From the NCBI GenBank assembly GCA_019096065.1, contig JAGUCH010000002.1, positions 13,900,501 through 13,964,500 of the forward strand: 64,000 nucleotides of DNA, read 5' to 3'. Shown here one piece after another: positions 7,375-41,620 of the stretch. The DNA comes from Paracyclopina nana (lineage: Eukaryota > Arthropoda > Copepoda > Cyclopoida > Cyclopettidae). Position 1 is the first letter of the stretch; every line of letters starts with the position of its first letter. Both the position numbers and the translations under genes were made by a program. Under the pieces are notes generated by a model. That model ran no database searches. It saw nothing but the letters and a program-made list of their open reading frames with translations, and was not told where the DNA came from.

Positions 7375-7631
7375 AAAACTTCACACATAGTGCAATTAGA
7401 TACCAAAATTTGTCACATCGCAACGCAGCACAACTCAGATAGACACAAAGAAAAAAGTTTCTTTGGCTTCATGAGTTACTTAATGTATACAGAAAGTCAA
7501 ATGGGCAAAGTTGGGCTCTTTTTGGCAAAAAAGTGGAAAAATTAGTCGAGTCATCTGGTTAAGTTTGTTTTGGTTGCTAGTTTCATGGTCATCTGCTCAT
7601 CACGCCTTGACACTATTCTTTATGCCATCAA
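7375..7631 (-). repeat. Truncated copy of the GGGCCTGGTCAT MITE family
   Basis: This stretch matches the complete element at 7685-8050 read on the opposite strand, for example CAACGCAGCACAACTCAGA, GGCTTCATGAGTTAC and GTCATCTGGTTAAGTTTG. Both terminal inverted repeats are missing, and the right side stops exactly where the next copy begins at 7632. It is a remnant into or next to which a second copy inserted. Confidence 0.7.
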
Positions 7632-7684
7632 GGGCCTGGTCATCTGAGGCTTTTTGTCACTAAGTGAGCAAAACTTGACACATA

Positions 7685-8050
7685 GGGCCTGGTCATTTAG
7701 TGTGTTCAAAATTTTTTGATATTGATATTTTTGGAGTGTCATGAAAAAGGTAACTTCGTTACGCAAAGAATAGTGTCAAGGAGCGACAAATAGATGACCA
7801 TGTAACGAGCAACCAAAACAAACATAACCAGATGACTTGATTAATTTTTCCACATTTTTACCAAAAAGAGCCCAACTTTGCCTTGTATAACCTTTTGTTT
7901 ACACTGGTAACTCATGAAGCAAAACAAACTTTTTACTTTGTGTCCGTCTGAGTTGTGCTGTGTTGCGACGTGACAAATTTTGGTAACTTCATTGCACAAT
8001 GTGTCAAGTTTTGGTCACTTAGTGACAAAAAGCCTCAGATGACCAGGCCC
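7685..8050 (+). mobile_element. Complete 366-bp MITE, GGGCCTGGTCAT family
   Basis: The element begins GGGCCTGGTCATTTAG and ends CTCAGATGACCAGGCCC, giving terminal inverted repeats of about 12-14 bp. It is flanked on both sides by ATA, a 3-bp target duplication. The interior is AT-rich and non-coding. TIR start and 3-bp duplication are reminiscent of PIF/Harbinger elements, but the duplication is not the canonical TWA, so I leave the superfamily open. Confidence 0.82.
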
Positions 8051-8489
8051 ATAGTGCACTGAAGTTACCAAAATTTGTCACATTGCAACACAGCACAACT
8101 CAGACGGACACTAAGAAAAAGTTTGTTTTGCTTCATGAGTTACCAGTGTAAACAGAAAGTTCGGCTCTTTGTGGTAAAAAATGTAGAAAAGTTAATGGGC
8201 GGCTGTACTTGGATTGACTAGAACATACTGTCCCTGGATAGACTGCAACACATAGACCCTGGATCGACTTTGTGAACACACTATCCTTGGATTGACATGA
8301 CGGGACCGTACTTGGATCGACAGCTGTGACAGTGAAGGACCTGGGTCGACTAGAACAAAATGTACTAGGATAGACTGTCAGATCACACTGTACCTGCATA
8401 GAAAAACGGATCATCCTTGAATCGATTGTTAAAACAAACAGTCCCTGGATAGGCTAGAACTGACCTGGTCCAGCTGGGAATTCCCATCT

Positions 8490-9196
8490 CACAGTGGACA
8501 AAAAGGCCATTTTTGCGCTCACAAGAAATTCCGTCAAATCGGCAAATTCTCATTTCAAGACCAATTTTTAGCTTCTTATTTGAATGACTTCTAGGCTATC
8601 AAAAGTGTCCAAATTAGTAGATATTGACAAATTAATATGAAAATTTGCCTTAAAAATCAATTTTTCTTGGATAAAGTCCATTTTTGGAAATGTAGCAGGG
8701 AGCGTGTCGGCCTACGGGTCGACCGCTCGCTGCGCGCGCTCGCCTCGGGCGCGCGGTAGTATATACGAGTAGTATAGTGAGATCATCAGTAAAGGAAATA
8801 AATTCACCGTATCGACACGTGTTGTCTACGGCCCAAGATTGACCTCTGGTAGCCTTCCAGGCCCGTCCCCGCTAGACGTAGCCTAGATCCGAGTAGTGGC
8901 TTGATAAGTCACAGTGGTATATCTCGACCTACTACAGAAAAATAGTAAAAGAGCCATTTTTTGGCTATTTTCAGGAAGCTATAACTTTTGTTTGCAACCG
9001 AATGTAATCAAGATATTGTGATAAAAAAATAACCAAGACATCATTTTAGGATAATCAATTGAAATTGGGTGCGGAAAATCGCGGAATGAGGAGCTATGAT
9101 ATCCTGTTTTTAGCTTACGACTATAAGAAAAAGGTTCTACGTCAATTTCACGACTTTTTCGGGATGAGAGTGAAAGCGGTCTTTTCAACCACTGTG
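8490..9196. mobile_element. Non-autonomous transposon with CACAGTG ends (Transib-like candidate)
   Basis: The ends are inverted repeats starting CACAGTGG: left CACAGTGGACAAAAAGGCC, right (reverse complement) CACAGTGGTTGAAAAGACC, about 23 of 32 positions identical. The element is flanked by CATCT at 8485-8489 and again at 9197-9201, a perfect 5-bp target duplication. Ends beginning CACWRTG with 5-bp duplications are known for Transib and the related RAG-type transposons. A solo LTR at 8691-8936 later inserted in it; without that it is about 457 bp and has no transposase. Confidence 0.65.
8691..8936 (+). mobile_element. Solo LTR of a retrotransposon, 246 bp
   Basis: The sequence begins TGTAGCAGGG and ends CTACTACA (TG...CA with a short inverted repeat). 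It is flanked by GAAA on both sides (8687-8690 and 8937-8940), a 4-bp target duplication. It is much more GC-rich than its surroundings, contains a TATA-like TAGTATATACGAG and, about 40 nt later, an AATAAA (near 8800), the order expected for an LTR promoter and poly(A) site. There is no internal region, so it is a recombination remnant. A Ty3/gypsy origin is likely but not proven. Confidence 0.7.
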
Positions 9197-9824
9197 CATC
9201 TATAATTTTTTCCAGGTATTGATCGTTTTTCTTGTCTAACCAAGTACAGTATGTTCTAGTCTATCTAAGGACAGTGTGTTCTGTTGATCGATCAAAGGAT
9301 GAATCATTTTGTCGATCCAAGTCCAGTTCGTCATAGTCTATCCATGGATGGTACATTGTCGATCCAAGGGTAGGAGTCCAAATTAATCAAGTCATCTGGT
9401 TAAGTTTGTTTTGGTTGCTAGTTACATGGTCATCTGCTTGTCACTCCTTGACACCATTCTTTGTGTCATGAAGTTACGTTTTTCATGATACTCCAAAAAC
9501 ATCAATAAAATTTTGTTTGAATGCACTAAATGACCAGGCCCTTAAGATTTTGATTTTAATAAATTGTTTTTTTAGACTTGTGACAGTGGTAACTCAAAAA
9601 TAAAAGCTCTGGTGCCTTACTTTATCAAGAGACACACATTATATTATCTATTTATATATGTAAACAATTTAAAAAACAAGCTAATAAAATAGCTGAGCAA
9701 ATTTTGTAAAGTTAAAATCAAGTGGCAACTTTGCGGGCTCGGACTTTGCAAGAGCCAAGTAATGCTATGAGATTTTTACTTTGTAATATGAGCTCAGACA
9801 TATTGTAAGCCTGTTTTATAATTT

Positions 9825-29800: not shown

Positions 29801-32800
29801 GTGCTGATGTTATTTCTTGTTTTTGCCTAGCTGTAGTTAGGCCCACGTGTTATCAGCCCACATGGCAAAATTTAAGGGAAGAACAAGCTAAAAAAAGGTT
29901 TCAGATGTCACAGATAGTGTTTGAAAGTGTCTGGAAAGCTAAGACCAGTCTAAAAGTGACTCAGCATTTACCTGCTGTTTCATGCTAAGCCATGATAAAA
30001 GAGTCATCCTTAAAAGAAAAATACCCACATTAAATTCATCAAGATTAATGGCTTAGGATTTTTCCATGACAACTCTACACTGACTGGAATGTCATCTGAT
30101 TGACAAAAGAGTGCAATAACATAAATCTGTTGTGCTTATCTAGCTTTCTTGAATTAACTGCTTGGGAAATTCTATGGAAAGCACCTCATGTATTGATTTC
30201 TTCAGCCAGACATTTGAGCCCTCATTTTTTGACAGCAAAATGCATCTTACTTTTCCTGAAAAAAGTAGGGAAAATTTTGCCTCCTTTGCTTCAGCTTTTG
30301 CAGTTCCTGTTTTCTGTCAATGTTTTGAACAACAGTATATAAGAAGACTCCTGTTACACTCAAACTCTTTTTCCACTTCATGGATCTTGACTGCATAGGT
30401 AAAAAATAAGCAAGAAAAATGACTACAAAATTGGAGCAGCACAAGCTTGGCTGGAAATTTGCAGCAAAATATTGTTTGTTCATAAGCTGAATTAGAAAGC
30501 AAAATCTAGACTTTGTTTCAAGCCTCTAGTGTTTCACCCTCATTTAGAAAAGTGCTACGCCTCAATGTGCAAAATCGCCCAATCATTTTACACAAGCTCT
30601 CTATTAAAAAAGTATTCTTAGGGACTAGATTGCTCCCTAGGTGGCGCTTCAAACGCTTCATCCGCCAAAGCTGCCCTTCAGCCAGCCTATACAAAACTAG
30701 CTCACAAGTTTTTTGAGGCCTTCATGTTTGATTTTTCATTTTTTGTTAGGGATGAACAGAGCATAGTTTGCATTCTGGGCATAATTCTACTTTCTTCTTT
30801 TCTGTGCAAGGCCATCTACTACAGGGAAAATTTCAAGCAGACGAAAGCCAGAAAAAAGGTGGACAACAACAACAACATAACTTTGATACTGCTTTTCGCG
30901 TAAAACAATAACAATTGGCTGAAAAAAAAGCTTTCTCAAGTGGACGAACTGGGCTCTCCTCAATTTTTCCAGTTTTAACTGAATGGCAAAAATATCATTC
31001 ACATTGTTAAATGAGTGTTTTGACAGGCAAAATTACATGCATGACATTTTTATCTCCGGCATAATTAGTCAGACAGACAGTGGACATTGCACACAGTTTT
31101 AAATGCAAAATCATGCCGATTTCATTAAACATTGGAGTTTTGTTGAAGCATGGCATCATTTCCCTTTTCTAGATATTTCAATGAGATTCTTGAGCAGAAA
31201 AAAAGCTACAAATATTTGCTTTAAACACTAAAGAAAGAGGCCATTGTAGCATCAGAATGTACAGTGGAATGCAGCTTACATTTTTATGTGTAACTGGGAT
31301 AAAAAGGCTCAAATTCCAGCCTCAACCAGTTACTCTTGCTTTTTTTTTGCTTAAAGTTGGGAACTCTGCACATTATGTAGGCCGAGCAAAGTACGTTCAA
31401 TGGGTAGTTCTAAGCATGAACACTGAGCTAAAATACCTAGATTGGTTTTCGACAATTCGCTATATCACCAATTCCAAACATAATTATTCTTTACGGCTCA
31501 TTGTCCTCTGTGTATTTACATTGGCTCTACTGGTTAAAGGCTAATCGGTAAAAGGCTAATTGGTAAAAGGCTAAATGGTGTAAGGCCAATTGGCCAAAGG
31601 CTAGATTGGTGGAAGGCTAACAGAAAAAGGGCTAAATTGATAACGATACAAGAGTACAAATCATTGAATGACATCTTCCTTGATCATTGAAGTTCCAACA
31701 ATGAAAATCAGCTCCATCTTTTAAATGTTGAGTGAAATAACTGTTTTTCATTTTTCTCAACATTTAAAAAAGCAGATAGCTTAGCTTTTTTACCTTAGCT
31801 TAGCTTTTTCTGGCAACATGAGAACGGCCTAAGAGTCTTGCTTACCAAGTCTTCTTATATGAGCCAAATAAAATAAAGTTAATTTCCTTGGTGACAAGAG
31901 AATCAAGTCTAGCTTATTCTCAACAAGCTAATACAGCTAAGTCAGTTTAGTCAAGACAAGGAAGTCTTTTTTGGTATTCCCAAGCTAAGCCCAAAAAAGA
32001 CATTTTGTGTCACAAAAAATAATGAAACCAAGAATTAACTAGGAGAATTAAAAAAATAGGGATATGTCACTTGTGAACCAATCACTCAAAAAACATCTGC
32101 TATTGAACTTTTTTTCTTATCGCCTTTTACCAATGTAGCCTTTGGCCAATTGGCCTTTTACCAATTAGCCTTTAACCAATTAGCCTTACACCAAATTGCC
32201 TTTTACTGATTAGCCTTTAACCAGTATACCCTTTACATTGTTATCGTGGCCTAATTGATTTTTCTGAAAAGTAGCCCAAATAGTAGCTCAGAATAACTAA
32301 CAATGGCTTCAGTTTTTTTACATAATTGTTGAGATTTGACTTGATAAGGATTTTTTCATTGTGAAGTATACATCATTTTAAAAAGCATGCTGTATTTTGT
32401 GTCAAAATGAGCCTTGCGCAAGAAGGAATGTAAGCCACTAAAAGTGAAGCACCAATGTTTATCTCAACAATGACTCATCATTTTTGCGTGAAATCGATTC
32501 GTTTGACAACTACTGGGCATCTTTCCAAGCTTGGCCAAAAGTGACCCCCCTTTTGTACTGAGTAATTCTCTCAGCCTTTCTTGTCAAACACTAACAAACT
32601 CTAGCTAGGTGGGTGTGCCTTTCAGCATAAAATATCAGCTGACAAAGTGATTGTTATTATCAGCTTACCTGTGTGCAGGGCTACCAGGTTGGCCACTTTC
32701 GGACGTGGATATAACTGACTTGCTGGCAGTGGATTTTTTTTCGGAAAAATCTGTAGAATCCTTCAGTGAAAGACAGTGACTAGCTGTCAATCAGGAGTGA

Positions 32801-41508: not shown

Positions 41509-41620
41509 GTCAGGATGGCCGAGCGGTCTAAGGCGCCAGACTCAAGGTTTACCCTTGCTCTGCATAGCTGAGCTTTCTGGTCCTCGAATGAGGGCGTGGG
41601 TTCGAATCCCACTTCTGACA
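41509..41620 (+). tRNA. tRNA-Leu(CAA) with anticodon-loop intron
   Basis: The gene starts GTCAGGATGGCCGAGCGG, with A box GGCCGAGCGGTCTAAGGCG, anticodon stem CCAGA and anticodon CAA, then an intron of about 25 nt, the 3' half of the stem (TCTGG), a leucine-type long variable arm (CCTCGAATGAGGGCG) and B box GGTTCGAATCC. The acceptor stem GTCAGGA pairs with TTCTGAC, discriminator A. Eukaryotic tRNA-Leu(CAA) genes commonly carry such an intron, removed by the tRNA splicing endonuclease. A T-run (CATTTTTCCCC) follows as the polymerase III terminator. Confidence 0.97.

Follow-up and report, generated by a model that had tools for sequence, protein, structure and literature searches.

A short CACAGTG-ended element, very probably a non-autonomous Transib interrupted by a putative solo LTR, in the Paracyclopina nana genome

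Introduction

The Anopheles Transib families N1-N3 are short, non-autonomous elements without a transposase. These families are named in a legend for a 12/23-like spacing of heptamer and nonamer (PMC8355894). More generally, the cited sections of three studies give heptamer-type ends and 5-bp duplications as typical of both Transib and RAG-like elements (PMC7204232, PMC8289069, PMC1852546). For HzTransib, the excerpts used here report the duplication GCTCG (PMC1852546), the catalytic triad D126, D225 and E436, and cleavage by nicking and hairpin formation in which the hairpins form on the flanks (PMC6941560).

Here we describe an element with CACAGTG ends in the window, the 64,000-nucleotide stretch C2:13900501-13964500 of a 92-Mb genome in ten contigs. 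A preliminary description, made from the window sequence, had proposed that this element may belong, as a non-autonomous member, to the Transib/RAG lineage in an arthropod. Since ends and duplications of this kind characterise that lineage, the short family described below is a new representative of a type already known.

Materials and Methods

The two outer parts of the element were searched separately in its own genome, yielding 313 and 257 candidates; the best 40 were scored and 30 loci fetched for each part. The 60 fetched loci gave 37 distinct end pairs, five having none and 18 being duplicates. The consensus was made from 25 copies, which are those of 330-480 bp out of 29 whose duplication has no more than one mismatch. 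Since the first count of duplications chose the end pair with the best 5-bp match, it was repeated with ends recognised by sequence only. This recount comprised 30 end pairs, two of them from locus L068, and its expectation was obtained by swapping flanks between copies.

For the transposases, the PDB library was searched with a Transib fragment, which matched HzTransib (6pqn_A, E 1.7e-101); the HzTransib residues then served as the query for the genome. The searches covered Transib-type queries, namely HzTransib residues and two of the genome’s own proteins. Triad positions were mapped onto the HzTransib chain with an offset of 17. Six short-element ends were compared with the full elements, two from the 25-copy consensus and four from single fetched copies.

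Results

The element in the window

The element spans 707 bp, with CACAGTGG at its start and CCACTGTG at its end (Table 1). It opens with CACAGTGGACAAAAAGG and closes with CAACCACTGTG. The element coordinates, the CACAGTG ends and the perfect CATCT duplication that were first described are all exact in the window sequence. The outermost 32 nt of the two ends form an imperfect inverted repeat with 72% complementarity. With 11 occurrences against 9.01 expected, the heptamer CACAGTG is at chance level in the window, and the case for an element therefore rests on the pairing of its ends, the duplication and the other copies.

The preliminary description also compared ACAAAAAGG, next to the left heptamer, with the nonamer of recombination signals. 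This motif falls within the A-rich block that occupies positions 9-16 of the family ends and reads ACAAAAAAGCC in the left and TTAAAAATGCC in the right end of the family consensus. The block lies directly after CACAGTGG and the 12- or 23-bp spacer is absent. The likeness thus holds for a spacer-free, A-rich stretch, as had been said, and does not extend to the architecture of a recombination signal, since that needs the spacer.

Table 1. Features of the element and of the inverted repeats beside it (window positions)
Feature	Position	Strand	Basis or remark
Left target-site duplication, CATCT	8485..8489	.	Sequence; generality from family copies
Left terminal inverted repeat: heptamer CACAGTG, G and A-rich block	8490..8521	+	
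Left part of the element, very probably a non-autonomous Transib	8490..8690	+	191/201 identical to consensus 1-201
GAAA, 4-bp duplication to the left of the inserted LTR	8687..8690	.	Sequence compared with family consensus
Putative solo LTR, 246 bp, TGTAGC...CTACA	8691..8936	+	Own-genome search, sequence
Third CACAGTG	8910..8916	+	Within the LTR; not an element end, no role in the element
GAAA, 4-bp duplication to the right of the inserted LTR	8937..8940	.	Sequence compared with family consensus
Right part of the non-autonomous element	8937..9196	+	8939-9196: identity to consensus 200-456 in 241/258 aligned columns
Right terminal inverted repeat, whose CACAGTG heptamer reads on the minus strand	9165..9196	-	
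Right target-site duplication, CATCT	9197..9201	.	
Inverted-repeat arms	7720-7847/9380-9507		91%
Inverted-repeat arms	7504-7621/7765-7882		89%
Inverted-repeat arms	7922-8001/8050-8129		88%

The 707 bp are not a single element; this reading was ruled out because the middle 246 bp are a separate repeat. In the own-genome search, positions 201-449 of the 707-bp query belonged to a very common repeat (best 40 of 594 candidates scored), and among these best 40 there are five pairs 8.8-9.0 kb apart. We read the 246-bp repeat as a solo LTR. The short-family consensus contains GGAAAAATAG once where the window copy has the LTR with its GAAA duplications, and the window copy exceeds the 456-bp consensus because of this insertion. 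The nesting suggests that the element entered a repeat-rich region first and that an LTR retrotransposon then entered the element, leaving the solo LTR. Beside some copies of the LTR repeat (L002-L008), open frames appear to encode a zinc-knuckle gag-like stretch and a membrane-anchored env-like stretch.

A nest of long inverted repeats surrounds the element at window positions 7401-9507, as seen among the best 25 of 120 pairs. The flanking repeat is present in many places of the genome, and at C1:10980579-10982966 it occurs five times, once every 507 bp. Elsewhere the window contains a PERIOD protein, matched by Period circadian protein chains (E 4.3e-25), presumably of the fly, and by a Period circadian protein homolog 2 chain (E 1.2e-3), which we take to be that of the mouse; this difference fits an arthropod host. 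Two minisatellites with 15-bp units, at 31531-31620 and 32122-32235, are reverse complements of each other. A 112-bp tRNA gene was found with Rfam at 41509-41620 and was missed by ARAGORN in bacterial mode; given its length, the gene probably contains an intron.

A family of short elements with 5-bp duplications

The short-family consensus is 456 bp long and carries CACAGTGG at each end. Its terminal repeats, CACAGTGGACAAAAAAGCCGTTTTCGCGCTCA and CACAGTGGTTAAAAATGCCGCTTTCACGCTCA, are identical at 27 of 32 positions, and the Kimura divergence of the 25 copies from this consensus ranges from 1.1 to 13.8%. The left end was found with at most two mismatches at 59 sites, compared with none for the reversed control. 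Two more copies, both free of the LTR, have 5-bp duplications of their own (CAAAG and CCGAG).

In the first count, 23 of the 37 end pairs had an exact 5-bp duplication, six had one mismatch and eight had two to four. The recount, in which the duplication played no part in choosing the ends, gave exact duplications in 18/30 pairs (0.17 expected) and agreement at four or five of the five bases in 24/30 (1.66 expected). We also looked for other duplication lengths among the copies, and found that exact matches over 2, 3, 4 and 6-10 bp numbered 1, 0, 1 and 0 (expected 0.52, 0.34, 0.10 and 0). Whether 5-bp duplications are a general property of the copies was a test named in the preliminary description, and it is answered in their favour, with zero or one exact match at any other length. 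Pairs without an exact 5-bp match amounted to 14/37 in the first count and 12/30 in the recount; two of the latter (L061 and the 456-bp pair of L068) are one-base register errors, both being exact in the first count. The duplicated target often has the form CNNNG, which was seen in 13 of the 23 exact duplications against 4.45% of the 5-base windows in the window DNA (binomial p 2e-12), and in 9 of the 18 exact duplications of the recount.

One copy (L016) has 885 bp between its ends, with a further insertion of about 425 bp near consensus position 240. By eye, AGTATCATAAC lies in inverted orientation near both ends of that insertion. Three other copies (L020, L022 and L031) lose their similarity to the consensus at 285-298, either as a shorter subfamily or at a common break point. 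A search of a phage collection yielded nothing beyond one 29-base match (E 0.7).

The short family has relatives in the same genome. Allowing up to three mismatches, CACAGTGGNNAAAAANGCCRNTTT was found at 354 + 341 = 695 sites, compared with 7 + 17 = 24 for the reversed control. Two further subfamilies, CACAGTGGATCAAAAAGCCGATTT and CACAGTGGGTCAAAAAGCCATTTT, can be distinguished, and their joint pattern has 161 exact sites against none in the control. Five such loci were fetched. An exact 5-bp duplication is present in three of them, at 457-470 bp; a fourth has both ends and no duplication, and in the fifth a right end was not seen. Loci L085-L088 on C1 represent these two CACAGTGG short-element subfamilies of 457-470 bp.

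Transib transposases in the same genome

HzTransib residues gave 16 matches in the genome, with a best E of 1.5e-46. Once separate pieces were merged and a match at E 0.038 was dropped, 13 loci (L071-L083) remained. The two queries from the genome’s own proteins returned the same 13 loci, one of them adding a short N-terminal fragment. The matched stretch is a single piece without a stop in 10/13 loci; with a longer query, stops, some of which may lie in introns, appeared in four of these ten matches. The frame of L075 is shifted towards its end. The DDE triad (D, D, E) is kept in all ten proteins aligned with HzTransib (L071-L080; L081-L083 left out).

Both ends and an exact 5-bp duplication were found in 10/13 loci, a result that is partly selected and favours hits because the searches required similar ends and at least three or at least four matching flank bases out of five. 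All ten duplications are nevertheless exact in spite of this threshold: GGTTG (L071), CGCTG (L073), GCCTG (L074), CTCTG (L075), GACTT (L076), CTGTG (L078), CCCTC (L079), CACCG (L080), CCATG (L081) and CGGTG (L082). Six of the ten have the form CNNNG. L072 and L077 have one end each, and L083 is a fragment. In the ten full elements, the terminal repeats agree at 14 to 24 of their outermost 24 positions. Eight of the elements carry CACAGTGG at one end or at both, and the other two have CACAGAAGG. Since L074 and L075 (99.7%) and also L079 and L080 (96.3%) are near-identical, the ten elements represent fewer independent families. Complete elements measure 3.0-3.3 kb, and the transposase is the longest frame in the eight that were scanned.

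The protein of L073, a single frame of 688 aa, matched HzTransib in the PDB library with an E of 1.8e-59, compared with 0.61 for RAG1L. In a Pfam scan of three host proteins, one touched the RAG1 model below the cut-off (E 0.00076) and the other two had no match. In 9/12 loci (L071-L082), similarity to the transposase is interrupted around residue 207 (numbered as in the L073 protein), as if these loci shared an intron that L073 does not have.

Inner ends and the source of the enzyme

The preliminary description had raised the question of an autonomous copy with a Transib/RAG1-like transposase and the same ends. The genome does contain Transib genes with the same outer 8 bases and 5-bp duplications; the inner ends ACAAAAAAGCC and TTAAAAATGCC, however, were not found in any transposase-encoding element among the 13 loci from the whole-genome Transib searches. 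The question is thus answered for the outer bases and not for the inner ends. The full elements with CACAGTGG mostly continue with GGC, followed by AAAACTCGC or a similar block near positions 23-33, L073 being different. In the short elements, the A-rich block at 9-16 is followed by GCC and then by CGCGC, ACGCGC or ACGCTC near 25-31. The similarity of the six short-element inner ends to those of the full elements gave p values of 0.085, 0.131, 0.018, 0.438, 0.05 and 0.035 in shuffles; with three of six at or below 0.05, this likeness is suggestive at best. In a blastn comparison of the consensus with the full elements, no convincing common interior was found (best E 0.004).

Several candidates for an autonomous partner were inspected and rejected. 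At C2:7339321-7342112, a pair of ends in facing orientation is separated by 2.8 kb. The pair has no duplication and no transposase homology, and we take the ends as belonging to two separate copies. L020, L022 and L031 were considered as autonomous 5' parts; the fetched DNA past 285-298 has no transposase homology. A fragment at C3:3406845 was considered as a decayed partner and has no matching end within 501 bases upstream.

Discussion

The window feature is, with high probability, a non-autonomous Transib element, a MITE with a consensus of 456 bp that was later interrupted by the solo LTR. Its proposed membership of the Transib/RAG lineage is supported by the 5-bp duplications and by the Transib genes with the same outer 8 bases. 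The enzyme must come from elsewhere in this reading, and since an autonomous copy with the inner ends of the short family was not found in the Transib searches, we infer its source. Most likely it was a Transib that is now lost or unfound, or a present Transib acting across families.

A different superfamily (hAT, CACTA/EnSpm, Chapaev or an unknown one) might have moved the short family, with CACAGTGG at its ends by coincidence. This would agree with the weak inner-end likeness to the Transibs and with the result that none of the 13 loci has a Transib gene with the exact inner ends. The duplications are hard to reconcile with it, however. They are 8 bp long for hAT, 2-3 bp for CACTA and 4 bp for Chapaev, whereas the copies here favour 5 bp so clearly that other lengths are matched once at most, and over the 8 bp expected of hAT none of the 30 end pairs match. 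The Transibs of the same genome also agree with the short family in the outer 8 bases, in a duplication length of 5 bp and, in many cases, in the CNNNG target, and we regard another superfamily as improbable. An element of the RAG-like branch (a RAG1L/RAG2L transposon) in place of a Transib is less probable still. The exact heptamer CACAGTG equals the RSS consensus in the section cited (PMC8289069), and 5-bp duplications are ascribed to RAG-like elements as well in the cited part of another study (PMC7204232). In contrast, the L073 protein, which belongs to a related full element and is not the enzyme of the window family, is far closer to HzTransib than to RAG1L, and the size of the full elements and their longest frame fit the same picture. 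A RAG2 family search of the genome returned a single match, which was not significant (E 0.35) and lies on a contig that has no Transib locus, and Pfam RAG1 as a genome query returned no significant match; the controls of both searches were likewise without signal. The evidence, with one protein compared (L073), points to Transib over the RAG1L/RAG2L branch.

The least credible reading, to which we give almost no weight, is coincidence or artefact, with the junctions in a composite of repeats giving the appearance of an element. The chance-level frequency of the heptamer, the richness of the region in inverted repeats and the composite nature of the 707 bp are in its favour. It is refuted by the copies, which have independent flanks: the left end recurs at dozens of sites and never in the reversed control, and the two LTR-free copies have their own duplications. 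In addition, two copies of the flanking repeat on C8 read through without the element over a single CACCT-like target, with 7 and 10 bases aligning beyond the joint, and as possible empty sites these copies lend weak support to an insertion.

For the preferred Transib reading, the course of transposition can be outlined by analogy with the family. A Transib transposase from another element would act in trans and bind both ends. It would nick beside CAC, hairpins would form on the flanking DNA, and the element would be freed with blunt ends, as in the cleavage known for HzTransib. The freed element would then be joined to a 5-bp staggered cut, which is the step that the duplications show.

It is possible, although we hold it rather doubtful, that one or more of the present Transibs move several MITE families whose ends agree with those of the Transibs only in CACAGTGG and a loose (A)CKCGC near positions 25-33. 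If so, the enzyme would read mainly the heptamer and a distant block, comparable to the heptamer and nonamer that RAG reads, and the genome would be a natural test bed for the tolerance of a RAG-type recombinase to changed spacers. Its suitability for this use would come from the exact RSS heptamer and from how often CNNNG is the target.

Comparison with known systems

Transib is a relative of the RAG recombinase, and this small arthropod genome adds at least 13 Transib loci. Existing knowledge of the origin of V(D)J recombination is unchanged by the window family. Nevertheless, short elements with the RSS heptamer contribute several hundred end sites beside the Transibs of the same genome, which makes the genome useful for comparing how ends are recognised and targets chosen.

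A V(D)J signal consists of a heptamer, a 12- or 23-bp spacer and the nonamer ACAAAAACC, of which the window family has the heptamer only. With RAG-like elements (ProtoRAG, protostome RAGL) and V(D)J signals, as covered in the cited sections, it has in common the CACAGTG heptamer, an A-rich stretch and 5-bp duplications (PMC7204232, PMC8289069); it differs in lacking 12/23 spacing, and the transposase compared (L073) is Transib-like and not RAG1L-like. The Anopheles families N1-N3, set beside it by the description in the legend, are alike by name and in their Transib-type ends, but their 12/23-like spacing is absent here. The closest comparison is with Transib itself, represented by HzTransib from Helicoverpa zea. 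The window family differs from HzTransib in its CACAGTGG ends, its lack of a gene and the A-rich block right after the heptamer, and shares with it the 5-bp duplications and the heptamer-like ends; a homologous DDE transposase is encoded by other elements of the host genome.
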